Shown here: one piece after another, positions 2,352-20,746 of the stretch | How positions within the stretch are numbered: position 1 is the first letter of the stretch | Layout of the letters: every line of letters starts with the position of its first letter | DNA from: Stieleria neptunia | Lineage (GTDB): Bacteria > Planctomycetota > Planctomycetia > Pirellulales > Pirellulaceae | Assembly: GCF_007754155.1 (NCBI RefSeq) | Contig: NZ_CP037423.1 | Location: forward strand, 8,552,938 to 8,616,937 | Length of the DNA stretch: 64,000 bases | Direction of reading: 5' to 3' | Program-made: the position numbers and the translations under genes | The notes under the pieces: generated by a model | Seen by the model: only the letters and a program-made list of their open reading frames with translations | The model's database searches: none | Told to the model about the DNA's origin: nothing

Positions 2352-2646
2352 CGGTGGGATAGGCTTTCAACTCGTTCCCAGGCTCCGCCTGGGAACGCAC
2401 TTCTGACGAGGCTCCGCCTCTGGCCAGGAGGCAGAGCCTCCGGCCCATCGCGTTCCAAGGCAGAGCCTTGGAACGAGTGGGGTAAGCTTCCAGCTTGCCT
2501 TGCGTCACGCACCGCGTGACGTCCCGATCGCGCTCCCGCCTGGGAGCCAATGGGTCGGAAGCGACACATCGCAGGTTCGCCGGCGGAGCCGGCGAGGGTG
2601 GCAAGCAAGATGCTTACCCCACTGCGATCTTGTCCCCAGGCTCCGC
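2352..2646. repeat. Intergenic palindromic repeat cluster
   Basis: Two perfect-stem palindromes stand out: 2374-2398 (CGTTCCCAGG/CCTGGGAACG) and 2451-2475 (CGTTCCAAGG/CCTTGGAACG). They are followed by the phrase GGGGTAAGCTTCCAGCTTGCC near 2480-2500 and a degenerate third copy near 2634-2652. The same words recur at 20.8, 37.5, 60.2 and 61.0 kb. The cluster lies between convergent genes (globin and porin) and could act as a bidirectional terminator. No gene is seen here. Confidence 0.8.
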
Positions 2647-4347: not shown

Positions 4348-4357
4348 CACGTAGGAC

Positions 4358-4367
4358 TCCTTCCTTA
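4358..4367 (-). promoter_or_regulatory. Strong Shine-Dalgarno site for the porin gene
   Basis: On the minus strand this reads AAGGAAGGAG, 10 bases before the ATG at 4347. A purine-rich site this good is uncommon in this window, and it fixes the porin start over the longer frame. Confidence 0.75.
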
Positions 4368-4451
4368 CGGAACGGTTAGTCACCGAGGAGGTGACGACTA
4401 ATGGAATGGCAAGTTCCCCGAGAGATTCGAGCCAGTGCGCAACCGCCTGTC

Positions 4452-4466
4452 GCACATCACGCCCCA
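4452..4466 (-). promoter_or_regulatory. Weak sigma-54 -24/-12 candidate facing the porin
   Basis: The minus strand reads TGGGGCGTGATGTGC: a GG-N10-GC core with TGG..CG and TGC matching the consensus but two mismatches in the -24 box. The predicted start lies roughly 90 bp upstream of the porin ATG. It is listed because the facing operon has a better match; chance occurrence is quite possible. Confidence 0.25.
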
Positions 4467-4812
4467 TCATCCCGGTGAACATCCGCGTCGGCTCCGGCGA
4501 ATCCGACCGTCATGTTGTGCTCTATCGTCTCATCGATGACGTCGATTCGTGAAGAATTTCCCGAACCGTGAACAGCCACGACAATCGTTAAAGTCGCGTG
4601 ATGCACGTGTCGGGGGACGACCTGCAATCCCCTCGCACGATTCCTGTGCAGCGGGGTGGAGTGACTGCCCGCAATCGGTGCAGATCACGATCACCGCACG
4701 TTGTCAAGTCAATTCACGCGGATTGGCTTTACGGTGAATCGTCTTACCTTGCTCGGCCACTGTGTCGCACCTCCCTCACGTTGTCGGTCCGGGCCGATCT
4801 TGACATCGGCTT

Positions 4813-4828
4813 TGGCACGTGGCGTGCC
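4813..4828 (+). promoter_or_regulatory. Sigma-54 (-24/-12) promoter candidate for the nitrate operon
   Basis: TGGCACGTGGCGTGCC gives a perfect -24 box (TGGCACG), exact GG-N10-GC spacing and a one-mismatch -12 box (GTGC for TTGC). Transcription would start near 4839, giving a leader of about 130 bases before nrtA. The same bases form a palindrome (GGCACG-TGG-CGTGCC), so a dimeric repressor or activator site is the alternative reading. An NtrC-family activator with an intact GAFTGA loop is encoded at 19295-20746. Confidence 0.6.
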
Positions 4829-4969
4829 TCGCTCGGTCTGTGGGATGACGGAGCAGTCCGGTCATCCTGGTCTCCTCTCCGCACCAAGTGGAGGGGCACC
4901 GGAAAACGCCACACCTTTTCCACCACCCTCCTCTGGGAGTTTGCCCAAGTGCCTTTGCGATCCCTTTCC

Positions 4970-6451
4970 ATGCAAGTCCTGCGACATCTGCCAACGTCCG
5001 CGCTCGCCCCGCTGACGCTCCTGTTGGTCGGTGCGTTGCAGATCGGCTGTTCTGATTCCAACATCTCATTGGAAGACCTGGAAGCCGCCGCGGCGAAACT
5101 CGAAACCACCGCGGGCGAAGACGCCGACGCGGGCGCCGCGGTGATGGAAATCCTGGACGTCGAAAAACCAAACTTGAAATTCGGCTTCATCAAGCTGACC
5201 GACTGTGCGCCGCTGGTGATCGCGAAAGAGAAGGGCTACTTCGAAGAGGAAGGATTGAACGTCGAAATCGAAGCTCAATCGAACTGGAAAGTGTTGCTGG
5301 ACCGGGTGATCGACGGCCAACTCGACGGCGCCCACATGTTGGCCGGCCAGCCGATCGGTGCGACCATCGGATTCGGCACCCAAGCTCACGTGATCACCGC
5401 CTATAGCCTGGATTACAACGGCAACGGGATCACGGTCAGCAATGAAATCTGGGAACAGATGCAGGAGAATGATCCGGCGTTGAAGTCCGACACACCGCCG
5501 CATCCGATACCCGCGACCTCGCTCAAGCCGATCGTCGACTCGTACAAGCAAGAGGGCAAGGATTTCAACATGGGGATGGTCTTCCCCGTCAGCACGCACA
5601 ACTACGAAATTCGATATTGGCTGGCCGCCGCGGGCATTCATCCGGGGATGTACACCGAAGAAAACATCCAAGGGACCGTCGACGCCGACGTGTTGTTGTC
5701 GGTCACTCCGCCGCCCCAGATGCCCGCGACGTTGGAAGCCGGAACGATCCTCGGTTATTGCGTCGGCGAACCGTGGAACCAACAAGCCGTCGTCAAGGGC
5801 ATCGGCGTTCCGGTCACCACCAACTATGACATTTGGAAGAACAATCCCGAGAAAGTCTTCGGCGTGACCAAAGAGTGGGACGAAAAACACCCCAACACCC
5901 ACCTTGCCGTGATCAAGGCCTTGATCCGCGCCGGCAAATGGCTCGACGCAACCGACGAAAACGGCGTCCTGGTCAACCGCCAAGAAGCCGCCAAAATTCT
6001 GTCGGGAAAAGATTACGTCGGAGCGGACGAAGACGTGATCGACAACAGCATGACCGGCACGTTTGTCTTTCAAGAGACCGACGTCCGCCCGATGCCCGAC
6101 TTCAACGTCTTCTTTAAATACTACGCCAGCTATCCGCACTACAGCGACTGCATCTGGTTCTTGACGCAGATGCGACGCTGGGGCCAGATCACCGAAGGCA
6201 AGCCCGCGAGTTGGTACGCGGAAACGGCCCAGGAGATCTACAAGCCGGAAATCTATCGCAAGGCCGCGGCGATGTTGGTCGCCGAAGGCAAGGCGTCTGC
6301 CGAAGACTTCCCCGCGGAGGACTACGACGGCTATCGAGACGTCACGACAGAGTTCATTGATGGCACCCCGTACGACGCCAAGGACCCGGTGGGCTACGTC
6401 AATGGTTTCGAGATCGGCAACAAAGATCCCGAATCGTTGGCCAAGCAGTAA
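4970..6451 (+). CDS. nrtA: Nitrate ABC transporter, substrate-binding lipoprotein NrtA
   Basis: 493 residues from the ATG at 4970, chosen because it opens a lipoprotein signal peptide with lipobox LQIGC (Cys27). The mature part begins a NrtA/CmpA/SsuA-like fold: [22 protein letters not shown], then [19 protein letters not shown], then [15 protein letters not shown] and a C-terminal region with [10 protein letters not shown]. These are hallmarks of nitrate-binding proteins (type II periplasmic binding protein, PF13379). It captures nitrate (possibly nitrite) at the outer face of the inner membrane for NrtBCD, encoded directly downstream. About 55 residues of charged linker separate the lipid anchor from the binding domain. 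The 252-bp gap to nrtB shows no gene. Confidence 0.95.
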
Positions 6452-6703
6452 CAGACCCCTCGGCGCGATCGACGTGGCACGGACGTCGGTCGCGCCGGCC
6501 AAGCTTCTGGAATGTACATGCGCGGTGACCGCCTCGCCGTTGCATGTTCGGGAAGCGGCCATTCGGGTCGGACGTCTCGGTCCGGTGCCAGACGTCCGAC
6601 CCGGCCGTGGACCCCGGATCGAAACAGATCCCCCATCGAAACAGACCCCGCATCGAATCACTCAACCCGAACTCCACCCCCCAACCACCTTGTAGCGAAT
6701 CGT

Positions 6704-7819
6704 ATGAATTGGAGAGGAAAAGCACTGAAGTTCTGTGACGTTGCCGGGCTTCCCGCCCTGGAACCGTTCGTCAGACTGCTCGCCGGCGAAGACGTCAAAG
6801 AGCAACTCAAAGGGATTGCCAAGTTCGTGGTCTTGCCGGTCGCGGCCGTCGCCGTGTTCCTGATGTTGTGGTCGGCCGCCGCCCGCACGGTGGTCACCGA
6901 CAGCATGCGGCTGCCCAGCCCGACCGACACCTGGACGGCCGGCAAAGAACTGTTCGCGATGCATTCGGCTCAGCGCGCCGAGGACCTCAAGGTCAAGCAG
7001 GAAAAAACGTTGCAAGCCGTCCAGTTGCTCGCCCAAGCCAACGCGGTGGGCAAGCAGGCCGAATCGGCAACGGGCGAGCGGAAAGAAACGCTGCTGGCCA
7101 ATGCCCTGGTCTTGAAGAAGAAGGCGGTTCAAGCGGCAAACTACCGTCCCTCGAGCGCCCCGACCTTCGTCGACCAGATCGTCACCAGCCTGAAAACCGT
7201 GTTCGTCGGATTCGCCATCGCCACCTTGATCGCCGTCCCGATCGGCGTGCTCTGCGGCATGAGCCCCTGGTGCAACGCGGCACTGACGCCGTTCATCCAG
7301 GTCTTCAAACCGGTCAGCCCACTGGCTTGGTTGCCGCTGGCGTTCTTGATCATCGTCTGGGCCTATTCCGGGACCAAACCCGGCGACAACTTTTTCGATA
7401 AAGCCTTTTTGATTTCCGCCATCACGGTCTCGTTGTGTTCCCTGTGGCCGACGCTGGTCAACACCACGCTCGGCGTGGCAAGCGTCGACAAGGACTACAT
7501 GAACGTGGCCCGCGTGCTGAAACTTTCCTGGAGCCAACAGCTGTTCAAGATCATTCTGCCGGCCAGTCTGCCGCTGATGTTCGCCGGGCTGCGGATCAGT
7601 CTGGGCGTCGGTTGGATGGTCCTGATCGCCGCCGACATGCTGGCCCAAAACCCGGGGCTGGGCAAGTTCGTCTGGGACGAGTTTCAAAACGGCAGCAGCC
7701 AGACCTACGCCCGCATCGCATTCAGCGTGATCATCATCGGTGTGATCGGACTGGTGCTCGATCGGATCATGATTTTCATGCGAAACCTGGTCAGTTTCGG
7801 TGACCCACAAGCCGCCTAG
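6704..7819 (+). CDS. nrtB: Nitrate ABC transporter permease NrtB
   Basis: 371 residues from ATG 6704; longer in-frame starts upstream give low-complexity sequence. TM1 (KFVVLPVAAVAVFLMLWSA) is followed by an unusual charged, Ala/Lys/Gln-rich stretch of about 80 residues (roughly 70-148) predicted to be helical, before the permease core. The core carries the ABC permease EAA-loop region (NVARVLKLSWSQQLFKIILP) and the conserved DMLAQNPGLG..VWDEFQ end typical of NrtB/SsuC permeases. Usual NrtB length is about 280, so the extra length lies in this insertion. It works with NrtA and the NrtC/NrtD ATPases encoded next. Confidence 0.94.
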   Translation: MNWRGKALKFCDVAGLPALEPFVRLLAGEDVKEQLKGIAKFVVLPVAAVAVFLMLWSAAARTVVTDSMRLPSPTDTWTAGKELFAMHSAQRAEDLKVKQEKTLQAVQLLAQANAVGKQAESATGERKETLLANALVLKKKAVQAANYRPSSAPTFVDQIVTSLKTVFVGFAIATLIAVPIGVLCGMSPWCNAALTPFIQVFKPVSPLAWLPLAFLIIVWAYSGTKPGDNFFDKAFLISAITVSLCSLWPTLVNTTLGVASVDKDYMNVARVLKLSWSQQLFKIILPASLPLMFAGLRISLGVGWMVLIAADMLAQNPGLGKFVWDEFQNGSSQTYARIAFSVIIIGVIGLVLDRIMIFMRNLVSFGDPQAA

Positions 7820-7908: not shown

Positions 7909-8841
7909 ATGAGCGTCGCAGTCCTCCAACGGCCCCGATCCAAATCGATCGCCAGACCCGCGCCGCCCGATCCGTTGATCTCGATGCGGGCGGTCAGCAA
8001 AGGGTATGGGAGTGGTGTCACGCGCAACGCAGTGTTGAACAATATCAATCTGAATTTGCGCAAGGGCGAGTTCCTGGCGATCGTCGGTTTCTCCGGCAGC
8101 GGAAAGACGACACTGACCAAGTTGCTGGCCGGGCTGGAGATGCCCGACAGCGGCGAGATCGTGATGGAGAACGAGGTCATCAAGGGACCGAGCGAAGAGC
8201 GCGGCATCGTGTTTCAAAACTACTCGCTGCTGCCCTGGCTGACCGTGCGGGGAAACATCGCCCTGTCGGTCGATCGAGTGTTCAAACATTGGTCGCGTGG
8301 CGAACGACACGACCATGTCGAAAAATTTATCGAAATGGTCGGCTTGTCACACGCCGTGCATCGCCGACCGCACGAATTGTCCGGCGGGATGCGCCAACGT
8401 GTGTCACTGGCACGAACCCTGGCCATGAAACCCAACGTCCTGTTGCTCGATGAACCCCTGGGCGCCCTCGACGCCTTGACCCGCAGCGTGCTGCAGGAAG
8501 AGATCCTGAAGATCTGGGAAGAAGAACGACAGACTTGCTTGCTGATCACCAACGATGTCGATGAAGCGATCTTGTTGGCCGATCGGATTGTCCCGCTGAA
8601 CCCGGGGCCCAATGCGTCACTGGGTCCTGCGTTTTCGGTCGAACTGGATCGACCAAGAAACAAGACGGAGCTGAATCACAACGAGACCTTCAAGGGGTTA
8701 CGAAACGCGGTCACCAATTACCTGGTCGCCGTGCGGCAAAAGTCGCGTGACGACGAAGCGTTGTCGTCCGAAGCACCGCCGATCGAGTTACCCGACCTGC
8801 AACCGCGAAGTCTGCGAATTCCACGCGGACGGGCCGGTTAA
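7909..8841 (+). CDS. nrtC: Nitrate ABC transporter ATP-binding protein (NrtC-like)
   Basis: 310 residues. Walker A GFSGSGKT, signature [13 protein letters not shown] and Walker B VLLLDEP are intact. The switch (H-loop) histidine is replaced: the motif reads [10 protein letters not shown] where LxxTHDVDEA is usual. The paired ATPase NrtD keeps the His, so the two may form an asymmetric heterodimer with one canonical and one degenerate site; I believe this Asn is shared by related NrtC proteins. A C-terminal tail of about 55 residues is not NTPase. It lacks the NrtA-like C-terminal sensor domain seen in cyanobacterial NrtC. Confidence 0.92.
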
Positions 8842-8948
8842 CCCCGTGGGCCAGGTTTTCGGCCTGCCGCCCGGGTGTCGCCCGGGCCGGCTTGACCACC
8901 ACCACCCATCCGAACACGAACAACCACAGAACCCCACAAGGCGGATCC

Positions 8949-9800
8949 ATGGCCGGTTATGTAGAAATGTTTCGTCTCGGCAAGACCTACGACACGCCCA
9001 ACGGGCCCGCGGTCATTGTCGAAGAATTTAATTTGAACATGGCGAAAGGCGAGTACATTTGCTTGCTCGGTCACTCCGGTTGCGGCAAGAGCACCGTGTT
9101 GACCATGACCGCCGGACTCAACCCGATCAGCGACGGCGGGATCGTCATCGACGGCCACGAAATCGAAGGGCCGGGCCCGGACCGCGGCGTCGTCTTTCAA
9201 TCGCCGTGCCTGATGCCGTGGATGACGGCGCTGGAAAACGTGTTGCTGGGCGTCAACCAGGTCTATCCACACGGCAGCAAAGCACAGCGGCGCGACATCG
9301 CCGGGTATTACCTGACGTTGGTCGGGCTCGGCAGCAGCCTCCACACACGCGCCTCGGCACTCAGCCAAGGCATGCAGCAGCGTGTCGGGATCGCGCGGGC
9401 GTTTGCCCTGAAACCGAAAATGTTGCTGTTGGATGAACCGTTCGGCATGCTCGACTCGCTCACCCGAATGGAGCTGCAAGAGATTCTGTTGGAGATCCTC
9501 GTCCGCGACAAAGTCACCACGCTGATGATCACGCACGACGTCGACGAAGCGCTGTTCATGAGCGATCGGGTCGTGATGATGACCAACGGTCCGCGGGCAC
9601 GCGTCGGCAAAGTATTCGAAATGCCGTTTGACAGGCCGCGGGTCCGCGCCGAGGTCCTCGATCATCCCCAGTACTACGACCTGCGGGGCGACATGATTCA
9701 GTTCCTTGAAGATCAAGACCACAAGAAGTTGAAGGCCGACGCGGAAGCCTTGGAAGCGAAAAAGCAGGCCGAACAGGAGCCCCAAGAGGTCGGCGTTTAA
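8949..9800 (+). CDS. nrtD: Nitrate ABC transporter ATP-binding protein (NrtD-like)
   Basis: 283 residues from the ATG at 8949, which follows an AAGGCGG purine stretch. Walker A GHSGCGKS, signature [13 protein letters not shown] (LSGGQ variant with Gln), Walker B MLLLDEP and an intact H-loop ([10 protein letters not shown]) are visible. The protein ends in a Lys/Glu/Gln-rich tail of about 30 residues. It belongs to the NrtD/CmpD/SsuB ATPases and lies 107 bp after nrtC. Together they would power NrtB. Confidence 0.93.
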
Positions 9801-9821: not shown

Positions 9822-10670
9822 ATGATCACTGCCACATCCAATCATTCGTTTATGACCAACATGATCGTGTTGGAAATCGACGACAGCGGTTCGCCACCGA
9901 CCTGCTCGATCCCGGTCGCCGATCGCGCGATCGCTGCTTCGCTGGAGACGGGATTGCCCTCGATCAAACAGTCCGTCGAGGGAGAAGCGGACGCGGTCGC
10001 GATGTGCGTTCCGATCTACCGCTCCGGTGAGATCGCTTCGGTGATCGCTTGGGTCGGCAACGCCAATGACGATACCGTCGGGGTGATGGAGATCTGGCAG
10101 CCGATCGGTGAATTCGATGACCTGAACCTCACGCACGGCTATTACGGCCCGCTGGACCGATTCCAAAACGTCAGCTCGTTTGTGCGTTTCGAAAAGGGCA
10201 TGGGCTTGCCCGGCCAGGTCTGGCGCAACCTCAGTTTCACCATCCACGACAACCTTCCCAGTCATCCCGGTTTCCTGCGTGCGGCCGGCGCGTCCGCTGA
10301 ATCGTTGCAAGTCGCAGTTGGCATGCCGGTCTGCGGCGACGACTTCCTGGCCGCGGCCGTGCTGATCAGTTCCGACTCCGCTCCGATCGCCCGCGGCTAC
10401 GAGGTCTGGCGATGCGCCGAGGACCGGTTCCTGTTGGAGTCCCGCGCGTACCAACGCCTGGAACAATCGCTGATGTACCAGGGCGAGCAAAACGTTCCGT
10501 TGGAAGGCAGTCTGCCCGGGCTCGCCTATGCCTCCGGTGTCGCCACGATCAGCGAAGATCCCGACATCGTCTACTCGGGACGTCCCTTTCGCGGCGGCCC
10601 TTGTAAAGGTGTTGCGATCCCGTTCTTCGAAGAAGATCGCATGACGAACATCCTGACTTTGTTGCTGTAA
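9822..10670 (+). CDS. GAF-domain protein in the nitrate operon
   Basis: 282 residues, soluble, no signal peptide. The middle (about residues 110-190) carries a GAF-like signature, FEKGMGLPGQVW, followed by VAVGMPVCGDDFLAAAVLI. The first 90 residues (with VAMCVPIYRSGEIASVIAWV) and the last 90 (VATISEDPDIVY..GVAIPFFEEDRMTNILTLLL) look like further GAF-type halves. No kinase, cyclase or DNA-binding domain is present. The gene sits 21 bp after nrtD and 15 bp before the Fe-S/anchor gene. GAF domains bind small ligands or redox cofactors, so it may sense nitrate, nitrite or redox state for the operon. That role is inferred from position. Confidence 0.75.
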   Translation: MITATSNHSFMTNMIVLEIDDSGSPPTCSIPVADRAIAASLETGLPSIKQSVEGEADAVAMCVPIYRSGEIASVIAWVGNANDDTVGVMEIWQPIGEFDDLNLTHGYYGPLDRFQNVSSFVRFEKGMGLPGQVWRNLSFTIHDNLPSHPGFLRAAGASAESLQVAVGMPVCGDDFLAAAVLISSDSAPIARGYEVWRCAEDRFLLESRAYQRLEQSLMYQGEQNVPLEGSLPGLAYASGVATISEDPDIVYSGRPFRGGPCKGVAIPFFEEDRMTNILTLLL

Positions 10671-10685
10671 GGGAACAGAAACGCA

Positions 10686-12398
10686 ATGAGCACTATGCTT
10701 CCCGTCGTCAACCGACAGCCCGAATTGGTCGGGCAGTTGCTGCACGAGCAACAACAGCTCAGCGCCGTTGAACAGTTCAGCGATTGGCACAGCGATCACG
10801 AGTCGGCCGACACCGTGACCGCACCGGCGCAGGAAAAATACTATCGCAGCCTGTTGCCGGCGACGGCCCCCGGACCGAACGAGCAATTCGCCTTCGAAGT
10901 CGACTTGAATGCGTGCAGCGGATGCAAGGCCTGTGTGGTGGCCTGCCACACGCTCAACGGATTGGAAGAGGACGAATCATGGCGGCGGGTCGGGACGCTG
11001 CTGATCGGCGACCCCGATTATGCCGACGCCGCCGCGATCCAGCATGTCACCACCGCCTGCCACCACTGCGAAGACCCCGGATGCCTGAACGGTTGCCCGG
11101 TCAAAGCCTACGACAAAGACCCGGTCACGGGGATCGTCCGCCACTTGGATGACCAATGCATCGGTTGCAAGTACTGCACGATGATGTGCCCGTACGAGGT
11201 GCCGCAATACAGCGATCGCCTGGGCATTGTTCGCAAGTGCGACATGTGTCATCAACGTTTGAGCGTGGGCGAAGCACCGGCCTGCGTTCAGTCCTGTCCG
11301 AACGAGGCGATTCGCATCACCGTCGTCCCGACCGACAACGGTCCATCCGCTTCGCATGAAACACTCGTTCCCTCATCGCCGTCTTCAAACCTTACCGGTC
11401 CGACGACGCGCTACGTTGCCGAATCACCGCTCGATCCCGCGCGGACACGTCCCCAGGACGAGAACGTCGACGAGGTCGCCGAGAGCCATTGGCCGTTGGC
11501 GGTGATGTTGGTCGCGACACAGATTTCCGTCGGCATCCTGATCGCGGAATCGCTTTCCACGCTGGTGCTGACCGCCGTGGGAATCAGCGTCCCGGACGCC
11601 GTACCGATCGCCGCCGCACTTTCGGCATTCGCGATCGGCAACATCGGGCTTGGGATCGCTCCGCTGCACCTCGGCCAACCGCTTCGCATGTGGCGTGTCT
11701 TTTTGGGTTTAAAGACCAGTTGGCTCAGTCGCGAAGCCGTCGTGTTGGGCAAGTTCATGGGACTGCTGGCCGGGGCCATCGCGTTGCTCCTGCTGCCCGT
11801 GGTCTGGGACTGGATCCCGACGTCGATCCAACAGTGGATTCCGACCGAATGGATCCCCGCGTGGGCCGGGCGGGCATTGCTGGCTGCTTCGATTCCGGTC
11901 GGACTGGCGGGATTGTATTGCAGCGCAATGATCTACATCGCGACCAAACGACGCCCCTGGCGCGGCGCGCGAACGTTGCCGCGTTTCTTCGGCACCTCGC
12001 TGACTTGTGGCCCGATCATCGCAGCGGTCGTGTTCGCGTTTGCCGGATTCGGCATCACCGCGGCGCTCTTGTGCCTGGCCGGTGCCGCTGCCGGCTGGTG
12101 GAAATGGACGCGTGAACGCCGGCTCTATCGAACCCCTGCCGGTTCCGATGATCCGTACGACCGGCGTTCTCGGCGGCTGGTCCATCAGCATCTCGGTGAG
12201 ACGTTGCGGATGAGAAACTTCAGTGCCGTCGTCGCCACGCTGCTGGCGGGATTGGCAGTTGTCCTGTGCCCGTGGTTGCCCATGGCCGGCGCGGTCTGTG
12301 CCGCGCTGTCTGCCGCGGTCTGGATCGCCGGCGAAAACCTGGAACGCCTGCTGTATTTCCAAAGCGTTGTTTACGACCGCATGCCGGGCACACTTTAA
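10686..12398 (+). CDS. Fused 4x[4Fe-4S] ferredoxin and DmsC-like membrane anchor, electron donor to NasA
   Basis: 570 residues in two parts. Residues about 60-225 are a DmsB/NrfC-type ferredoxin with four Cys clusters: CSGCKACVVAC, CHHCEDPGCLNGC, CIGCKYCTMMC and CDMC..ACVQSC, 16 Cys in all. From about residue 255 to the end come about eight hydrophobic segments with DmsC signatures: HLGQPLRMWRVFLGL, SWLSRE, the RRPW motif and a C-terminal ERLLYFQ. DMSO-reductase-type enzymes normally encode these as two subunits; here they are one chain. It ends 12 bp before nasA. The arrangement suggests that quinol in the membrane feeds electrons to NasA, unlike ferredoxin- or NADH-fed assimilatory reductases. 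The electron route is inferred. Confidence 0.9.
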   Translation: MSTMLPVVNRQPELVGQLLHEQQQLSAVEQFSDWHSDHESADTVTAPAQEKYYRSLLPATAPGPNEQFAFEVDLNACSGCKACVVACHTLNGLEEDESWRRVGTLLIGDPDYADAAAIQHVTTACHHCEDPGCLNGCPVKAYDKDPVTGIVRHLDDQCIGCKYCTMMCPYEVPQYSDRLGIVRKCDMCHQRLSVGEAPACVQSCPNEAIRITVVPTDNGPSASHETLVPSSPSSNLTGPTTRYVAESPLDPARTRPQDENVDEVAESHWPLAVMLVATQISVGILIAESLSTLVLTAVGISVPDAVPIAAALSAFAIGNIGLGIAPLHLGQPLRMWRVFLGLKTSWLSREAVVLGKFMGLLAGAIALLLLPVVWDWIPTSIQQWIPTEWIPAWAGRALLAASIPVGLAGLYCSAMIYIATKRRPWRGARTLPRFFGTSLTCGPIIAAVVFAFAGFGITAALLCLAGAAAGWWKWTRERRLYRTPAGSDDPYDRRSRRLVHQHLGETLRMRNFSAVVATLLAGLAVVLCPWLPMAGAVCAALSAAVWIAGENLERLLYFQSVVYDRMPGTL

Positions 12399-12410
12399 GA
12401 GACCACCGCG

Positions 12411-14669
12411 ATGAGCATCGGATCCACCAAATCATTGACCCAAATCAACGACGAGCGTCGCCCGCGGTCCTTTGAGCTTCCCCAGCTGCTGCAGGCTCGC
12501 ACGGGCAAGATGACCCGTGAACTGCTGCTCAACCCGGGCGACCATGGGCTGGGGATGACGCCCGAGTCGTTGCGTGCCGAAACAACCACCGTGGCCGCAT
12601 GCGGCTATTGCGCCACCGGTTGCGGATTGCGTCTTCACGTCCGCGACGGACAAGCCGTAGGTTTGACCCCCGAAACCGATTACCCGGTCAACCTGGGCAT
12701 GGCTTGCCCCAAGGGGTGGGAAGCCCTGGAGGTGCTCGACGCCGATGACCGAGCGACCCACCCGTTGCTGCGCGATGCCAATGGCGAACTCAAACGCGTC
12801 GACTGGGACACCGCACTGACGACGTTTACCGAGCGTTTGAAAGCCATTCAATCCGAACACGGCAACGATTCGGTCGCGTTCCTCAGCACGGGGCAAATCC
12901 CTTGTGAAGAGATGGCGTTTCTCGGCGCGCTGGCAAAGTTCGGGATGGGAATGCTGCACGGCGACGGCAACACGCGGCAATGCATGGCAACCGCCGTGAC
13001 CGCGTACAAGGAATCGTTCGGATTCGACGCACCACCGTACACCTATGACGATTTCCAACAGAGCGATTGTCTGGTGTTTGTCGGCGCCAATCCCTGCATC
13101 GGGCACCCGATCATGTGGGAACGCGTGCTCCGCAATCCGAACTCACCCGAGATCATTGTGCTGGATCCCCGCCGGACCGAAACGGCGATGGCCGCGACAC
13201 AGCATGTGCAACTGCGTCCCAAGAACGATCTGGCCATTCTGTATGCGATCACCCAGCACCTGATTGCATCGGATTTGGTCGACCACGAATTCATCGCGGC
13301 ACACACGACCGGATACGATGAACTGGCTTCCCACGTCGCGGCGTTCACCCCCGACGCCGTCGGCCCCGCTGCCGGCATCTCCGCCGACGAGATCCGCCGC
13401 GCCGCCGAAACGATCGGTCAGGCGAAGGCGGCGTCGTTGTGGTGGACGATGGGCGTCAACCAAAGCTACGAGGGGACTCGAACCGCCCAGGCGATGATCA
13501 ACATCGCCTTGATCACCGGAAACATCGGGCGCCCGGGAACCGGTGCCAACAGCATCACCGGACAGTGCAACGCGATGGGGTCGCGATTGTGGAGCAACAC
13601 GACCAACCTGTTCGGTCACCACAAATTCGAATCGCCCGAAGATCGCGCGCGCGTCGCAAGCATCCTCGGTATCGACGTGGACACCATCCCCACAGAAACC
13701 GGCTGGTCCTACGACCGAATCGTCGAGGGCATCCGCAACGACGAAATCAAAGGGCTGTGGGTGATCGCCACCAACCCGGCACATAGCTGGATCGACCGAG
13801 GCGACTTCAAAGTCTTGCTCGACAAGCTCGATTTTCTGGTGGTGCAAGACATGTACGCATCCACCGAGACCGCGCGGCTGGCCGATCTGGTGTTGCCGGC
13901 CGCGGGTTGGGGCGAAAAGGAAGGCACGTTCATCAACAGCGAACGGCGCTATGGGCTGCTCAAGAAAGTCCGCAAAGCCCCCGGCGAAGCGCTGGCGGAT
14001 TTCCAGATCTTTCGCGCCGTCGCAGCCTACTGGGGCGTCGAAGACATGTTTGCCGATTGGACACACCCCGAAGCCGTGTTCGAAACAATGCAAGCGGCCA
14101 GCGCAGGCCGTCCCTGCGACATCACCGGAATCGACGGCTATCGACAGCTTGATCAATGCGGCGGCATCCAGTGGCCGTGGTCGCGTGAGGACGCGGCGGC
14201 GCAGCAGACGCCGCCCCAAGAACGTCGACTGTTCGCCGACGGATCGTTTTGCCACCCGGACGCCAAGGCACGGTTGATCGTTGACAACATCACGCCGATG
14301 CCCGAACCGCCGGACCAAGCATTCCCGATTCTGTTGATGTCCGGACGCGGCACGGTCAGCCAGTGGCACACGCAAACACGGACCAGCAAGAGCAAGGTTC
14401 TGCGAAAGCTTTACCCCGAGCGGCCGTATGTCGAAATCCATCCGACCGACGCCAGTTTGATCGGCGTTCACAACGGCGACACCGTTTCGGTGCGTTCACG
14501 ACGGGGCGAAGTCTTCGTCACCGCGATGGTCACGCCCACCGTCCAGCGAAATCAAGCGTTCATCCCGATGCACTATGACATCATCAATGAACTGACACTG
14601 CGGCATTTCGATCCCCATTCACGGCAACCGAGTTTCAAGGACTGCGCCGTGGCGATCCGCAAAGCCTAA
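12411..14669 (+). CDS. nasA: Nitrate reductase catalytic subunit (NasA/NapA-type molybdopterin oxidoreductase)
   Basis: 752 residues. An N-terminal [4Fe-4S] motif is formed by C64, C67, C71 and C99 (CGYCATGC...GMACPKG). The Mo ligand Cys is at about residue 191 ([11 protein letters not shown]), as in NasA/NapA nitrate reductases. The motif [14 protein letters not shown] and the C-terminal MopB segment ([17 protein letters not shown], then [10 protein letters not shown]) complete the bis-MGD fold. There is no Tat signal, so it acts in the cytoplasm. About 60 extra residues precede the Fe-S motif. It lacks the C-terminal [2Fe-2S] domain of many NasA proteins. It reduces nitrate to nitrite, with the upstream fused protein as likely electron donor and NirA downstream as the next step. 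Confidence 0.94.
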
Positions 14670-14708: not shown

Positions 14709-16523
14709 ATGTCCAACGATAAAGCGTTCACCGAGGAACAAAAACAATTTCTTTCCGGATTCGCGTTCGGTGCGGATGTGGCGCGCGCCGTCAGCGGATT
14801 GCCGGTCATCAGCAACGGCAGCAGCTGTGGCGGCGATGCATCGATCACCGTCGGCAGCAAAACGACGACGACGCTGCCGATCGGCCCCGAAAAGATCGCG
14901 TTGATCGCCCAGCAAGAAACCGAGTCGGCCGGAAAAACGCTCTGCAAGGAAGAACTCGCCAAGAAAGAGAAGAACCCGCTGGACATCTGGGACGAGATGC
15001 AGGCCCGCAGCGATGCCGGCGAGTTTCCCAAAGGGACCGACGTGTTCCTGCAAAAATTCCACGGACTATTCTACGTCGCGCCGGCACAAAACAGCTACAT
15101 GTGCCGCATGCGGATTCCGGGCGGATCGCTGCGGGGCTGGCAACTGGCCGGTCTGGCCGACCTGGCCGATCGATCGGCCGGCGGCTATTTGGACGTGACG
15201 ACGCGGGCCAACCTGCAATACCGCGAGATCCCCGCCGATCAAGCGATGAACATTCTGTATGGGTTGCGCGAATTGGATATCGTCAGCCTGGGTTCCGGCG
15301 GCGACAACATCCGCAACTGCACGGCAAGTCCGCTTTCGGGCATCGACACGTGCGAATTGATCGAGACGATCCCGTTGGCCAAGCGGATGCACCATTACAT
15401 CTTGAACAGTCGAGAAATGTATGGGCTGCCGCGGAAATTCAACATCGCCTTTGACGGCGGTGGCACCATCAGCGCCTTGGATGACACCAACGACATCGGC
15501 TTTCACGCGGTCCGCATCGACGAACAACACGCGACGGCCGACTTCCCTGCCGGCGTGTACTTTCAACTCACACTCGGCGGCATCACCGGGCACAAAGATT
15601 TCGCCCGTCCCACCGGAGTCCTGCTACGCCCCGACCAATGCCTTGCCGTCGCCGGCGCCATCGTTCGCGTGTTCGTCAAATCCGGTGATCGCACCGATCG
15701 CAAGAAAGCGCGACTGAAGTACGTGTTGGACGATTGGGGGTTCGAAAAATTTGTCGCCGCCGTCGAAGAACAACTCGGTCGGACGCTCGGCCGTTTCGAC
15801 GAATCCAAATTGACCCGATCGGTCGCCGAAAATCGTCTGGCCCACATCGGGTTTCACCCGCAAGCCCAAGCGAACAAAAACTACGTCGGTGTCGTCTTGC
15901 CGGTCGGGCGGATCACCAGCGACCAGGCTCGCGGGCTGGCGCAAATTGCCGACGAGTACGGGAACGGTGAGATCCGTTTGACGGTTTGGCAAAACCTGCT
16001 GATCCCCAACCTTTCCGATGCCGACACCGACGCCGTTAAAGAACGACTGACGGAACTGGGACTCGGATACGAAGCGAGCAGCTTTCGAGCGGGGCTGGTT
16101 GCCTGCACCGGTAGCGGAGGCTGCAAATACGCCGCGGCCGAAACCAAAACCCAGGCGATGGCGCTGGCCGAACATCTTGAATCCCAATTCAAACTGGACA
16201 GCCCGATCAACATCCACTTGACCGGATGCCACCACAGTTGTGCCCAGCACTACATCGGTGACATCGGCTTGCTGGGCTGCAAAGTCGAAAAAGGCGACGA
16301 CATGGTCGACGGGTACCACGTGCACCTGGGAGGCGGCTGGGGCGACCGCCAGGGGATCGCTCGGCTGATCTTTGAATCGATCGCTTTCGAAGATATGCCC
16401 GATTTGATCTCCGCCATCATCGGCGGCTACCTGGATCAACGGCGCGACGGCGAGACGTTTGTTGAATTCACCGCCCGATCCTCCGATGACGAATTGAAAT
16501 CCCTCGCCCGAGCCTTGGTTTGA
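14709..16523 (+). CDS. nirA: Nitrite reductase NirA (sirohaem/[4Fe-4S])
   Basis: 604 residues. Sirohaem/[4Fe-4S] ligands are C466, C472, C507 and C511 (CTGSGGC and TGCHHSC). Two sulfite/nitrite reductase ferredoxin-like halves are visible (LDVTTRANLQYREIP and IRLTVWQNLLIPNL). NRNCTASPLSG-type sequence (IRNCTASPLSGID) is typical of NirA. It reduces nitrite to ammonium with six electrons. An N-terminal extension of about 85 residues carries EEQKQFLSGFAFG, closely resembling DEQRAWLNGFFSG near the start of the next protein. It lies 40 bp after nasA and 56 bp before the flavoprotein, its likely electron donor. A sulfite substrate is less likely given the operon. Confidence 0.93.
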   Translation: MSNDKAFTEEQKQFLSGFAFGADVARAVSGLPVISNGSSCGGDASITVGSKTTTTLPIGPEKIALIAQQETESAGKTLCKEELAKKEKNPLDIWDEMQARSDAGEFPKGTDVFLQKFHGLFYVAPAQNSYMCRMRIPGGSLRGWQLAGLADLADRSAGGYLDVTTRANLQYREIPADQAMNILYGLRELDIVSLGSGGDNIRNCTASPLSGIDTCELIETIPLAKRMHHYILNSREMYGLPRKFNIAFDGGGTISALDDTNDIGFHAVRIDEQHATADFPAGVYFQLTLGGITGHKDFARPTGVLLRPDQCLAVAGAIVRVFVKSGDRTDRKKARLKYVLDDWGFEKFVAAVEEQLGRTLGRFDESKLTRSVAENRLAHIGFHPQAQANKNYVGVVLPVGRITSDQARGLAQIADEYGNGEIRLTVWQNLLIPNLSDADTDAVKERLTELGLGYEASSFRAGLVACTGSGGCKYAAAETKTQAMALAEHLESQFKLDSPINIHLTGCHHSCAQHYIGDIGLLGCKVEKGDDMVDGYHVHLGGGWGDRQGIARLIFESIAFEDMPDLISAIIGGYLDQRRDGETFVEFTARSSDDELKSLARALV

Positions 16524-16578
16524 ACCGCATTCCACTGACATCCAAAGAAGATTCGACTCCTTCCCCCCTTTGACTGCC

Positions 16579-18186
16579 ATGACAACCAGCTTTATTCCAG
16601 AATCGGCACCTTTCAACGACGAACAACGTGCCTGGCTGAACGGATTTTTCTCCGGCATGATGGGCATGCAACCCGGCGGCGACGCCTCGGCCGTGATGAA
16701 CGCCGCCGGACTGTCGGCCGATGCCTTGCCGGGGGTGATGGAACCGGAAAAAGAAGAAGAGGAAGACTTTCCCTGGCACGACGACTCGCTGCCGATCGTC
16801 GATCGCATGGAGTTGGCCGAAGGCAGGCCCGTCGAACGACGCCTGATGGCGGCGATGGCACAACTGGATTGCGGCTCCTGCGGCTACCTCTGCAAATCCT
16901 ACAGTGAAGCCATCGCATCGGGAGAAGAAACCAACCTGACGCTCTGCAGTCCCGGCGGCAAAGAAACGTCCAAGATGATCAAGAAGGTGCTGAAGGAATC
17001 CGGTGACACCGCAGCACCAGCGGGCAAACCCGCAGGTGGCGCCGCGGCCAACGGGACGTCACAACAGGGCTACACACGCAAAACACCGTACGACGCCAAG
17101 TTGATCGAGTCGCGGCCGCTCAACGGTGAAGGCTCGGCCAAAGACACCCGTCACATCGCCATCGATCTGGGTGATTCAGGCATCCAATACGAAGTCGGTG
17201 ACGCGCTGGGAATCTACCCGACCAATTGCAACGAACTGGTCGAAGCCATCGTCCATGCCATCGGCGCCGATCCCAATCTGTTGACCGTCACACCGGCGGG
17301 AGACCCCAAATCACTCGCCAACGCGCTCGGCGAAGAGTTCTGCCTGAAAGACCCCAGTGACGAGTTACTGGAACTGGCACTCAGCCGTGTTTCCGATCCG
17401 GCGACCAAAACGCAACTGTCACAAATGCTGGAAGAAGGCGCACCGGACGGTTTTGACGTTTTGGATGTCCTGCAGTTGGCGGGCGATGTGCCGATCAGTG
17501 CCACCGAGTTTCTGGAAACGCTTTCGCCCTTGAACCCCCGACTGTATTCGATCGCCAGCAGCCAGGCGTGCGTCGGCAACCAGGTTCACCTGACCGTTGG
17601 CAAAGTCACCTACGATCGAAACGGTCGATTGCGAAAGGGCGCCGCCAGCACCATGCTCGCCGATCGCTTGGAACCCGGTGCCACCCTCCGCGTATTCACA
17701 CAAGCCAATCACGGCGGGTTCACCGTCCCTGCGGATCCCGCCAAGCCGATGATCATGGTCGGTCCAGGTACCGGCATCGCTCCATTTTTGGCGTTCCTGC
17801 AAGAACGCGATGCGACCAAGGCGACGGGCAAGAATTGGTTGTTCTTCGGCGACCAACATGCCGCCACGGACTTCTTGTACCAGCAGGAATTGCAGTCGTA
17901 TCTCGACACCGGATTGTTGACCCGGCTGGACACGGCCTTCAGTCGCGACGGGACGGAAAAAGTTTACGTCCAAGATCGCATGAAACAAAACGCCGCCGAA
18001 CTCTGGAGCTGGCTGCAATCGGGAGCGCACTTCTATGTTTGCGGTGACGCCAGCCGAATGGCCGTCGACGTCGATCGCACGCTCAAATCGATCATCGCAT
18101 CCGAAGGCGGACTCTCCGACCAAGCCGCCGCCGACTATGTCGCAAAGCTGAGCAAGGAAAAACGCTACGTCCGCGACGTCTATTGA
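16579..18186 (+). CDS. 4Fe-4S/CysJ-like flavoprotein reductase, likely donor to NirA
   Basis: 535 residues from the ATG at 16579 (an in-frame TTG lies 9 bases upstream). Order of parts: a short N-terminal motif DEQRAWLNGFFSG (residues 14-26); an acidic linker; a PF04060-type [4Fe-4S] motif C98, C101, C105, C123 (DCGSCGYLC...LCSPGG); then a CysJ/CPR-like FAD domain (RLYSIASS, GAASTMLADRL) and NAD(P)H domain (GPGTGIAPFLAFLQER, C-terminal KRYVRDVY). The FMN flavodoxin domain of classical CysJ is missing and the Fe-S domain stands in its place. The likely path is NAD(P)H to FAD to [4Fe-4S] to NirA. The adjacency to nirA argues for nitrite rather than sulfite. Confidence 0.88.
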   Translation: MTTSFIPESAPFNDEQRAWLNGFFSGMMGMQPGGDASAVMNAAGLSADALPGVMEPEKEEEEDFPWHDDSLPIVDRMELAEGRPVERRLMAAMAQLDCGSCGYLCKSYSEAIASGEETNLTLCSPGGKETSKMIKKVLKESGDTAAPAGKPAGGAAANGTSQQGYTRKTPYDAKLIESRPLNGEGSAKDTRHIAIDLGDSGIQYEVGDALGIYPTNCNELVEAIVHAIGADPNLLTVTPAGDPKSLANALGEEFCLKDPSDELLELALSRVSDPATKTQLSQMLEEGAPDGFDVLDVLQLAGDVPISATEFLETLSPLNPRLYSIASSQACVGNQVHLTVGKVTYDRNGRLRKGAASTMLADRLEPGATLRVFTQANHGGFTVPADPAKPMIMVGPGTGIAPFLAFLQERDATKATGKNWLFFGDQHAATDFLYQQELQSYLDTGLLTRLDTAFSRDGTEKVYVQDRMKQNAAELWSWLQSGAHFYVCGDASRMAVDVDRTLKSIIASEGGLSDQAAADYVAKLSKEKRYVRDVY

Positions 18187-18342: not shown

Positions 18343-18984
18343 CTAGTCGACCAGCCCTAACCGAACGGCCCGGACCGCAACGTCGGTGCGATCCGAGGCC
18401 CCGGTCTTGCGCAAAATGTTCTGCACGTGTTCCTTGACGGTCTCGACACTGATCCCCAATGACTTGGCGATCTCACGGTTGCTCAGTCCGAACGCGATGT
18501 GACGCAGCACCTGGGCCTCGCGAGACGTCACCGGCAATTCCGGTGGAAGCTGTTGCGAGCGAATCGTCTCGGACATCTTTTTGCGAACGTTGTCCAGACG
18601 GCCACCCGGATACGCCGATCCGTTTTCGCACGCATGGCTGAGCGTCTGTTCGATCTTGGTTGCCGAATCACTCTTGAGCACGTAATCATGAGCCCCGTTG
18701 GCAACCGCTCGGGCAAGATAAACGGGGTAGTCGTACGCGCTGATCAAGACGACCGGCAAGTCGGGATGCGACTGGCGTATCGACATCAACAGCGTCAATC
18801 CGTCCATCTTCTTCATCTGGACATCGATCAGCACCGCGTCGAATCGGTCTTCATCCAGATGCCGCAACGCGCTCTCGCCGTCGGGAACCATTTGCGCGAC
18901 GCTAACCGCCGTCCCGACCAGTAACTCCATGAGCCCGAGACGAGCTGCTTCATGGTCATCGACGACCAGCGTTTTTAACGACAT
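18343..18984 (-). CDS. NarL/FixJ-type response regulator (LuxR HTH)
   Basis: 213 residues. An N-terminal receiver has acidic D9/D10, phosphoacceptor D54 (VLIDVQ) and the conserved Lys (VLKSDSA). The C-terminal LuxR/GerE helix-turn-helix reads VTSREAQVLRHIAFGLSNREIAKSLGIS..TVKEHV. This is a complete two-domain regulator; the partner kinase is not in the window. It is convergent with the nitrate operon and divergent from the NtrC-type regulator, with a 310-bp shared promoter region. NarL-type regulators often answer nitrate/nitrite, but the signal here is unknown. Confidence 0.92.
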   Translation of the reverse strand: MSLKTLVVDDHEAARLGLMELLVGTAVSVAQMVPDGESALRHLDEDRFDAVLIDVQMKKMDGLTLLMSIRQSHPDLPVVLISAYDYPVYLARAVANGAHDYVLKSDSATKIEQTLSHACENGSAYPGGRLDNVRKKMSETIRSQQLPPELPVTSREAQVLRHIAFGLSNREIAKSLGISVETVKEHVQNILRKTGASDRTDVAVRAVRLGLVD

Positions 18985-19294
18985 TGCGATCCTACGTGCT
19001 TCTGATTTGATTCCAAATCGCTCCAGCTGACGCCTGGGAGCGGACTCTCCTAAAAATGGCGTATTTGCGACTGAAGTGTGGGTCTAATATGAGAATATTT
19101 CGCATATCCCCCTAGCCCAACCCCCCAAAATGGGCGCACATTTGCAAAAACAGCAGTAAGACTGGGGGGAGGGCACAGCGAAACACACGATTTGGATTTT
19201 GCTCGGACGCTAACGGCAACGTAGGAAAACGTGAGAGAGAACGCGTCTGCTGTCGCGCTCGGCCCCGATTCCTCGCACGATCCCCACGCCCGAC
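18985..19294. promoter_or_regulatory. Shared promoter region of two divergent response regulators, with imperfect palindrome
   Basis: 310 bp with no gene. At 19087-19107 lies ATATGAGAA-TAT-TTCGCATAT, an AT-rich palindrome with 8 of 10 pairs matching, in an otherwise GC-rich window. It sits between the two divergent starts and is a plausible operator for one or both regulators. A run of C and G tracts follows (19110-19170). Confidence 0.45.
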
Positions 19295-20746
19295 ATGAAT
19301 GAATCCGCCTCCATTTTGCTCGTCGACGATGATTGGCACTTGGTCCAGTCGATGGCCGAATGGCTGCGGGAAATTGGACACACGGTCCACGTGGCGGATT
19401 GTCTAAACGGCGCCAAAGCGAGCCAGGCCGAACATCGTTTCGACCTGGTGATCACGGACCTTCGCCTGCGTGACGAAGACGGGTTCGAGCTGATCCACCA
19501 CACGCGGCAAAAGCACCCGGAAACCACGGTGCTGGTGATGACCGGTTACGCGACGCCCGACACGGCGATCGAAGCGATCAAAGCCGGCGCGTTCGACTTA
19601 TTGACCAAGCCGCTGATCGACGACGAGTTGAATCTGGCGATCAGCCGCGCGGTTTCCCAACGAGACATCACGTTGGAGAACCAAAAGCTCCGCCAGCGAC
19701 TCGATAGCCGAAGCGGGCTGGAGAACATTCTCAGCCACGACTATCGGATGATGAAAATCTTCGACGTGATCGATAGCGTGGCCGATGCCAGGGCATCGAT
19801 CTTGATCACCGGCGAAAATGGGACCGGCAAAAGCATGATCGCCCGTGCCATCCACGAACGCAGTGCACGTCGTGGCAAACCGTTCGTCGAAGTCGCCTGC
19901 GGGGCACTACCGGACAATCTGCTCGAGAGCGAATTATTCGGCCACGTCAAAGGTGCGTTTACCGGCGCCAGCGGCGACCGAGTCGGCAAGTTTCAATTGG
20001 CCGACAAGGGCACCTTGTTTCTGGACGAAATCGGAACCGCGACCGCGGCGATGCAGGTCAAACTGCTGCGAGTGCTTCAGGAATTTCAGTTCGAACAACT
20101 CGGCGGCACGCAAACACACTCGGTCGATACGCGGGTGATCCTGGCGACCAACGAAGACCTCTCCCGCGCGGTGACCGAAGGCTCGTTCCGACAAGATTTG
20201 TACTACCGGATCAACGTCGTCAACATCGTGCTGCCCTCGCTGCGAGAGCGCGTCGGCGACATTCCTTTGCTGGTCGATCACTTCCTCCGCGAAGCCGCTG
20301 AGACGTGCGACCGGGAGATCGAAGGCTTTGATCAACACGCCATGGCCACCCTGCAAGCGTATCGTTGGCCCGGCAACGTTCGACAATTGCAAAACGTCGT
20401 CGAGCGTGCGGTGCTGCTGTCTCGCGAGAACGTGCTGACACTGGAAGATTTGCCGCCGGAGATCTTGGGCCGCGTGGCAGATCCGCTGGCATCGGCGATC
20501 CCACAGACCGCTGGCGAAAACACGCTCAAACCCTTCGCGATGACACCGGCCAGTTATCAAAACAAGAGTCTACGCGAAGCACTCGAAGGCCCCGAACGCG
20601 AGATCATCCTGCATTCGCTCCGCCGCCACAATTGGAACCGAGCGGCAACGGCCGACGCCTTGGAAATCAATCGCACCACGCTCTACAAAAAAATGAAGCG
20701 GCTGGGTCTGGACGATCCAAGACTGCAATTCGCCATGGAAGGGTAG
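19295..20746 (+). CDS. Sigma-54-dependent NtrC-family response regulator
   Basis: 483 residues. Receiver domain with D11-D13 and phosphoacceptor D55 ([12 protein letters not shown]); AAA+ domain with Walker A GENGTGKS (173-180), the sigma-54 contact loop GAFTGA (220-225) and Walker [11 protein letters not shown]-finger region and a Fis-type HTH at the C terminus ([22 protein letters not shown]). It should activate RpoN promoters when phosphorylated. No kinase lies beside it. With a sigma-54-like promoter before nrtA, control of nitrate assimilation is a natural hypothesis, not shown. Confidence 0.95.

Follow-up and report, generated by a model that had tools for sequence, protein, structure and literature searches.

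A nitrate-assimilation operon of the planctomycete Stieleria neptunia encodes a DmsB-DmsC fusion protein (P0001) immediately upstream of a NasA-type nitrate reductase (P0002), and we consider it probable (about 0.8) that the pair forms one inward-facing quinol:nitrate oxidoreductase complex serving assimilation. The operon lies in a 64,000-nucleotide stretch (the window; NCBI RefSeq assembly GCF_007754155.1, contig NZ_CP037423.1, forward-strand positions 8,552,938 to 8,616,937) of a genome that consists of one contig of 11 Mb. A first-pass annotation, made by a model from the letters of the window, had proposed that the two genes couple nitrate assimilation to the quinone pool. This proposal gains support from the association of the genes across genomes, conserved His and Glu residues of the quinol site, the charge pattern of the membrane anchor and a tethered structural model; quinol oxidation itself is what we infer from them. 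Nitrate assimilation is customarily regarded as a cost borne by ferredoxin or NAD(P)H. If our reading is true, growth on nitrate has a different redox cost and energy yield in lineages with the pair, including Acidobacteriota, Planctomycetota and Sulfurimonas.

Results

P0001 joins a DmsB-type iron-sulfur domain to a DmsC-type membrane anchor. Residues 67-211 match TIGR02951 (DmsB) with 134.5 bits, short of the DmsB equivalog cut-off of 214.1, residues 120-211 match Fer4_11, and residues 268-455 match PF04976 (DmsC) with 35.9 bits, above the cut-off of 22.3. The first-pass annotation had described a single chain with four [4Fe-4S] motifs and about eight DmsC-type membrane segments, 12 bp ahead of a cytoplasmic NasA-type reductase. 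The chain is borne out by 16 Cys residues, the PF04976 match and an AlphaFold2 model whose DmsC-like part forms eight long helices, and 12 bases do separate the stop of P0001 from the start of P0002. No hydrophobic signal is present at the N-terminus of P0001, and its Pfam and NCBIfam family scans returned no match to the NarI family. In its own genome P0001 is the sole PF04976 match and the sole full-length match, alongside four partial B-domain-like matches; its closest named relatives among the matches listed are those of Stieleria maiorica (87%) and Rhodopirellula sp. JC639 (86%). A fusion created by sequencing error was rejected because full-length homologues are numerous.

P0002 carries the three MopB domains PF04879, PF00384 and PF01568, with Cys64, Cys67, Cys71 and Cys99 at the FS0 cluster and Cys191-Met192 at the molybdenum-ligand position (numbering by eye). 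Cys-Met occupies this position in 93/94 NasA proteins linked to a fusion; among the comparison rows it is found in NapA and most NasA, two NasA-like rows having Cys-Thr and the FdsA row Cys-His. P0002 shows no hydrophobic export signal within its first 70 residues and no flavin, BFD or [2Fe-2S] domain by Pfam, and narG is absent among the best 25 of the 26 NCBIfam families that match it. It is 35% identical to S. meliloti NasA over 705 positions. Small trees set it apart from formate dehydrogenase and NapA rows, among NasA relatives, with references that are few and mostly plasmid-borne and with NarB and Bacillus NasC rows left out. By its NCBIfam scores, P0002 is NasA-like and outside the named curated equivalogs.

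Is the fusion tied to this particular reductase? We searched 294 genomes of Planctomycetota for the fusion (E 1e-30) and P0002 (E 1e-90), scoring the best few candidates per genome, and obtained matches in 31 and 105 genomes, respectively. The best P0002 matches of 25 genomes reached at least 563 bits (41-100% identity), the next standing at 464 bits (40%). All 25 genomes with this close NasA have the fusion, upstream on the same contig and strand, with 15-615 bases between the two alignments in 23 genomes, 1,111 in G194 and 1,247 in G133. The remaining six fusion matches are weak, partial and without such a NasA adjoining. The search for the fusion beside nasA across Planctomycetota that the first-pass annotation had suggested thus revealed an association, and the outcome that it had named as damaging, a fusion found mostly away from nasA, was encountered neither here nor in the two samples that follow.

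A locus scan of named genomes covered the best 80 of 560 relatives, selected with Cys motifs. Going by record titles, eight phyla are represented: 36 loci are from Acidobacteriota, 27 from Campylobacterota, nine from Planctomycetota, two each from Actinomycetota and Omnitrophota and one each from Chlamydiota, Poribacteria and Verrucomicrobiota, one further locus belonging to an unplaced bacterium. The placements in Actinomycetota, Omnitrophota, Chlamydiota and Poribacteria may be mis-binned, since they come from metagenome-assembled genomes alone. NasA lies directly downstream of the fusion in 68/80 loci. In the other twelve, L110 and L137 are cut by the contig end, NasA stands about 2.5 and 1.7 kb further on in L091 and L096, its frame is disturbed in L101, and seven loci are from Sulfurimonas. 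NasA was found elsewhere in all nine whole genomes searched (those of the seven Sulfurimonas, L110 and L137), in two pieces in G297. Among 149 genomes of Acidobacteriota, the phylum of G302 (the Acidobacteria metagenome-assembled genome of L110), NasA was matched at E 1e-100 in 58, six of them at 63-70% identity and the next best at 41%. The fusion (E 1e-30) was present in 6/6 genomes with close NasA, one of which is G302, picked because it bears the fusion, and in 0/14 with distant NasA (20 of the 58 were searched). The pair reaches far beyond Planctomycetota. In two of the Sulfurimonas loci (L105, L125), the fusion adjoins genes that look by eye like those of cytochrome oxidase, with NasA elsewhere in the genome.

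Distances among fusions and among their NasA partners correlate strongly (r 0.94 over 66 pairs, partly reflecting shared ancestry; the maximum of 1000 shuffles was 0.19). In a 66-row tree, 49 fusion-linked NasA proteins form one group that only a plasmid-encoded NasA-like protein of Cetobacterium joins (L147:7007-10019, 41% to P0002; Shimodaira-Hasegawa-like approximate likelihood ratio support 97), and an approximately unbiased test rejects its exclusion. An SLAC1-type anion channel gene adjoins the Cetobacterium gene in place of the fusion. Two subtypes of the pair can be distinguished, (1) that of the window and 13 further loci, and (2) that of Acidobacteriota, Campylobacterota, some Planctomycetota and others.

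For the quinol site and the orientation of the anchor, we aligned 198 fusions, mostly from Planctomycetota: P0001, 78 of the 80 loci and 119 of 120 listed matches, after dropping the incomplete L110 and L137 and one listed match below 541 residues. Comparison rows were E. coli DmsC and an Azospirillum set that we label SoeABC-like from its taurine-pathway neighbour. Each of the 16 B-domain Cys is kept in at least 197/198 fusions, a conservation that is partly built in because the locus scan selected by Cys motifs; the invariance of His328 and Glu350 (Table 1) is not built in. Their DmsC counterparts, His65 and Glu87, are both listed for the quinol site in a passage of PMC8076601, according to which replacement of His65 blocked quinol oxidation.

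Lys and Arg of the loops on the B-domain side exceed those of the opposite side in 198/198 fusions (median 19 v 1, on columns aligned to P0001), and the anchor of P0001 has 24 on the N-terminal side and 1 on the other. The SoeC-like anchor follows the same pattern (20 v 0 on aligned columns, 22 v 0 by its own segmentation). E. coli DmsC shows the reverse, 4 v 8, when segmented alone and no clear excess, 4 v 3, on the aligned columns; it is by the former count that DmsC contrasts with the fusions. An earlier count by per-sequence helix finding, which misplaced helices mostly in Campylobacterota and skipped the short L080, L110, L121 and L137, gave an N-side excess in just 56/76. Because of the charge pattern on the B-domain side, the B domain, the quinol site and NasA probably all face the cytoplasm. 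The orientation of the assembly would then be opposite to that of E. coli DmsABC and match that of SoeABC, and quinol oxidation would probably take place on the inner face and be electroneutral, unlike that of NarGHI. A periplasmic DmsABC-like enzyme was rejected, on the charge at the N-terminal side of the anchor and the lack of an export signal in P0002.

Because the two genes of the window share one frame, they could be modelled as one tethered chain (P0001 residues 60-570, five residues with the stop read as Gln, and NasA residues 1-684). AlphaFold2 gave a predicted local distance difference test (pLDDT) value of 89 and a predicted template modelling score (pTM) of 0.84. A control, the tethered CysJ-like protein and fusion of Terriglobus roseus, gave pLDDT 86 and pTM 0.57, with the weaknesses that it comes from another species, draws on fewer aligned sequences (55 rows v 96) and involves a multi-domain partner. 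By our estimate, freely moving parts should give a pTM of about 0.57, the larger part's share. The first-pass annotation had called for a model of the complex: a fixed arrangement of NasA and fusion is predicted, as judged by pTM.

Of the 68 pairs, 56 have at least one nitrogen-assimilation gene and 52 have NirA or NirB within the flanking sequence, which extends to at most 6 kb and is often shorter. Neighbours include Nrt transporters, NirA or NirB with NirD, AmtB-like and CobA-like genes, and NarK-type transporters stand near 20/68 pairs; the NirB, Rieske NirD-like and NarK query proteins were verified by Pfam or NCBIfam. Five planctomycete NasA-like proteins (L060-L064, group f12) are from genomes in which the fusion was not matched. 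Of these, L061 and L062 were scanned, and both carry a C-terminal NirB-type pyridine-nucleotide oxidoreductase and a BFD domain. Therefore, different wiring appears to replace the anchor in these genomes, and NasA fused to a NirB-type flavoprotein appears to be an NADH-wired alternative in Planctomycetota.

Discussion

What is the mechanism of the pair? Nitrate would be imported into the cytoplasm by the Nrt transporter. Quinol, probably menaquinol, would be oxidised at the inner face by the C domain of the fusion, and its electrons would travel along the four [4Fe-4S] clusters of the fusion's B domain and the single NasA cluster to molybdenum, where cytoplasmic nitrate would become nitrite. 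Ammonium would then be formed by NirA, whose electrons probably come from the adjacent NAD(P)H flavoprotein. With substrate and quinol site on the same side, the nitrate step would be electroneutral. The energy gain would lie upstream: NADH electrons can enter the pool through a proton-pumping dehydrogenase, so energy that is lost on the direct routes would here be conserved at the nitrate step. Taken as a whole, we regard it as likely that nitrate assimilation can be powered in a third manner, in addition to ferredoxin/flavodoxin and NAD(P)H: by a menaquinol:nitrate oxidoreductase that faces inward, with NasA mounted on an inverted, fused DmsBC-type anchor. About eight phyla would share this enzyme, its two genes being passed on together and falling into two subtypes. 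Named carriers suited to testing this reading are Stieleria-type planctomycetes and Terriglobus roseus (L131).

Several observations weigh against our reading. P0002 scores below the cut-offs of the curated NasA equivalogs (488.4 bits against 1000 and 457.3 against 1100), and formate dehydrogenase alpha, likewise below cut-off, is its best NCBIfam match. Twelve of the 68 pairs have none of the assimilation genes searched for in their flanks, and 10/24 NirA matches, from Campylobacterota or other rows, are just 24-31% identical and could be sulfite reductases. The seven Sulfurimonas loci (L082, L083, L105, L109, L115, L124, L125) have no NasA in the available flank, and the Cetobacterium member of the NasA group has no fusion within 7 kb. 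The structural model contains an artificial tether through a stop codon and leaves out the last 68 NasA residues.

Quinol-linked nitrate reduction is usually respiratory, and the pair could be membrane-bound and yet serve respiration or redox balance, with cytoplasmic nitrate as an electron sink and assimilation secondary. The NarK-type transporters fit such a role; NarK carriers also serve assimilation, however, and the other neighbours are those of an assimilation pathway. An inward-facing quinol site would, moreover, conserve no energy by itself, and we consider a respiratory role improbable. NasA might instead receive electrons from the CysJ-like flavoprotein or a ferredoxin, leaving the fusion to another partner. 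The CysJ-like gene does belong to the same operon, and NasA-CysJ fusions are described for other organisms in a passage of PMC4013037. Near pairs, however, this gene is always accompanied by NirA (14/14, never without it), and the flanks of 54/68 pairs revealed none; its product most likely serves NirA. The fusion, in turn, accompanies this NasA in both phylum surveys, and the flavoprotein-fusion control gave no fixed arrangement; this wiring of NasA is therefore quite unlikely.

That P0002 acts on something other than nitrate, for example as a formate dehydrogenase or as a sulfite dehydrogenase feeding quinone, seems very unlikely to us. The best NCBIfam match points to the former, and the anchor resembles that of the SoeABC-like set (33% over 95 residues, E 2e-6). 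Against it stand the Cys-Met of fusion-linked NasA, as opposed to the Cys-His of FdsA, the nitrite reductase and nitrate transporter neighbours, and an identity to one SoeA-like subunit of just 26% over 256 residues.

How does the quinol:nitrate oxidoreductase proposed here compare with known systems? P0002 shares with NasA, NarB and NasC the catalytic fold, the FS0 cluster, the molybdenum-ligand Cys, the lack of an export signal and the neighbouring nitrite reductase and nitrate transporter genes; the known donors of those enzymes are ferredoxin, flavodoxin or an NADH-flavoprotein. NarGHI also reduces nitrate on the cytoplasmic side with quinol, but belongs to the NarG branch, has a haem b NarI anchor and is electrogenic; among the family matches listed for the pair, neither NarG nor haem b NarI occurs. 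Mycobacterial NarGHI, a different enzyme, provides a case of quinol-linked nitrate reduction used for assimilation. DmsAB is exported by the Tat route. With DmsABC the pair shares the B and C domains by family match and the conserved His65 and Glu87 positions; it differs in that E. coli DmsB and DmsC come from separate genes, DmsA is of another branch, and the DmsB equivalog score, the exported catalytic subunit and the P-side orientation are all lacking, passages in PMC10609526 and PMC8076601 describing DmsAB as translocated and the DmsABC quinol site as near the P side. SoeABC resembles the pair in its molybdoenzyme, four-cluster subunit, DmsC/NrfD-type anchor expected to face the cytoplasm, and quinol-site His and Glu; a passage in PMC8076601 likewise expects SoeC to be inverted, facing inward. 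The cytoplasm-facing charge pattern is common to both (topology by charge only), whereas the SoeA-like subunit compared is a distant relative of P0002, B and C are separate genes in our SoeABC-like set, and SoeABC oxidises sulfite and delivers to quinone. ForCE of Bacillus subtilis is an FdsA-related molybdoenzyme linked to menaquinone, but its partner is a small DUF1641 protein without a DmsBC-type anchor (from a section of PMC8808070).

The pair has the parts of a complex iron-sulfur molybdoenzyme with a quinone-linked anchor: a MopB subunit with a [4Fe-4S] site, a subunit with four [4Fe-4S] clusters (predicted from Cys) and a polytopic anchor with quinol-site residues. A passage in Wells et al. 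2020 states that subunits with four clusters or a membrane anchor accompany no member of the FDH/NasA/AioA/NapA clade (FDH, formate dehydrogenase) (PMC7331816); by its gene content, the fusion-NasA pair is an exception that contradicts this statement. We found no description of the pair in the accessible portions of the open-licence literature. The quinol-dependent idea already exists as a database label, record P0106 naming a homologue 'nitrate reductase (quinol-dependent), transmembrane subunit'.

The operon and its surroundings

The operon runs on the forward strand in the gene order of Table 1, from the NrtA-like protein through the NrtB-like permease, two NrtC/D-like ATPases, a 282-residue protein, the fusion, P0002 and NirA to the CysJ-like flavoprotein. 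The assimilation setting described by the first-pass annotation is confirmed by the Nrt-type transporter genes, NirA and the CysJ-like flavoprotein around the pair.

Table 1. Features of the nitrate-assimilation operon, in window coordinates.
Feature	Position	Strand	Evidence
NrtA-like nitrate-binding protein	4598..6451	+	PF13379
NrtB-like permease	6512..7819	+	TIGR01183, 159.8 bits, below cut-off 209.05
NrtC/D-like ATPase (first)	7909..8841	+	TIGR01184, 288.8 bits, slightly below cut-off 291.8
NrtC/D-like ATPase (second)	8892..9800	+	TIGR01184, 310.4 bits, above cut-off 291.8
282-residue protein, between second ATPase and fusion	9822-10670	+	weak GAF_2 match, below cut-off
P0001, DmsB-DmsC fusion, 570 residues; proposed quinol dehydrogenase and membrane anchor of NasA	10686..12398	+	open reading frame, family matches
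P0001 B domain, residues 67-211, 16 Cys for four [4Fe-4S] clusters	10884..11318	+	TIGR02951, Fer4_11; clusters predicted from Cys
P0001 C domain, residues 269-559, eight membrane helices	11490..12362	+	PF04976, model helices
P0001 His328, aligned with E. coli DmsC His65 (quinol site)	11667..11669	+	H in 198/198
P0001 Glu350, aligned with E. coli DmsC Glu87 (listed quinol-site residue)	11733..11735	+	E in 198/198
P0002, NasA/NarB-type nitrate reductase, 752 residues	12411..14669	+	family matches, trees
NirA nitrite reductase	14709..16523	+	PRK09567, 891.9 bits, cut-off 523
CysJ-like FAD/NAD(P) flavoprotein with iron-sulfur motif, probable donor of NirA	16570..18186	+	PRK06214, 731.3 bits, cut-off 432

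The 282-residue GAF_2-like protein may sense nitrate or redox state for the operon. Just past the 3' end (18343-20746) lie divergent response regulators of the NarL/LuxR and NtrC types. Upstream of the Nrt genes and on the opposite strand, an Alginate_exp (PF13372) outer-membrane porin (2647-4482) is perhaps an outer-membrane nitrate channel; in L128, an open reading frame that looks porin-like by eye (2422-3771) also precedes the fusion. Just upstream, on the forward strand (36-2351), stands a row of genes for a multihaem cytochrome c, a Tll0287-like protein and a single-domain globin.

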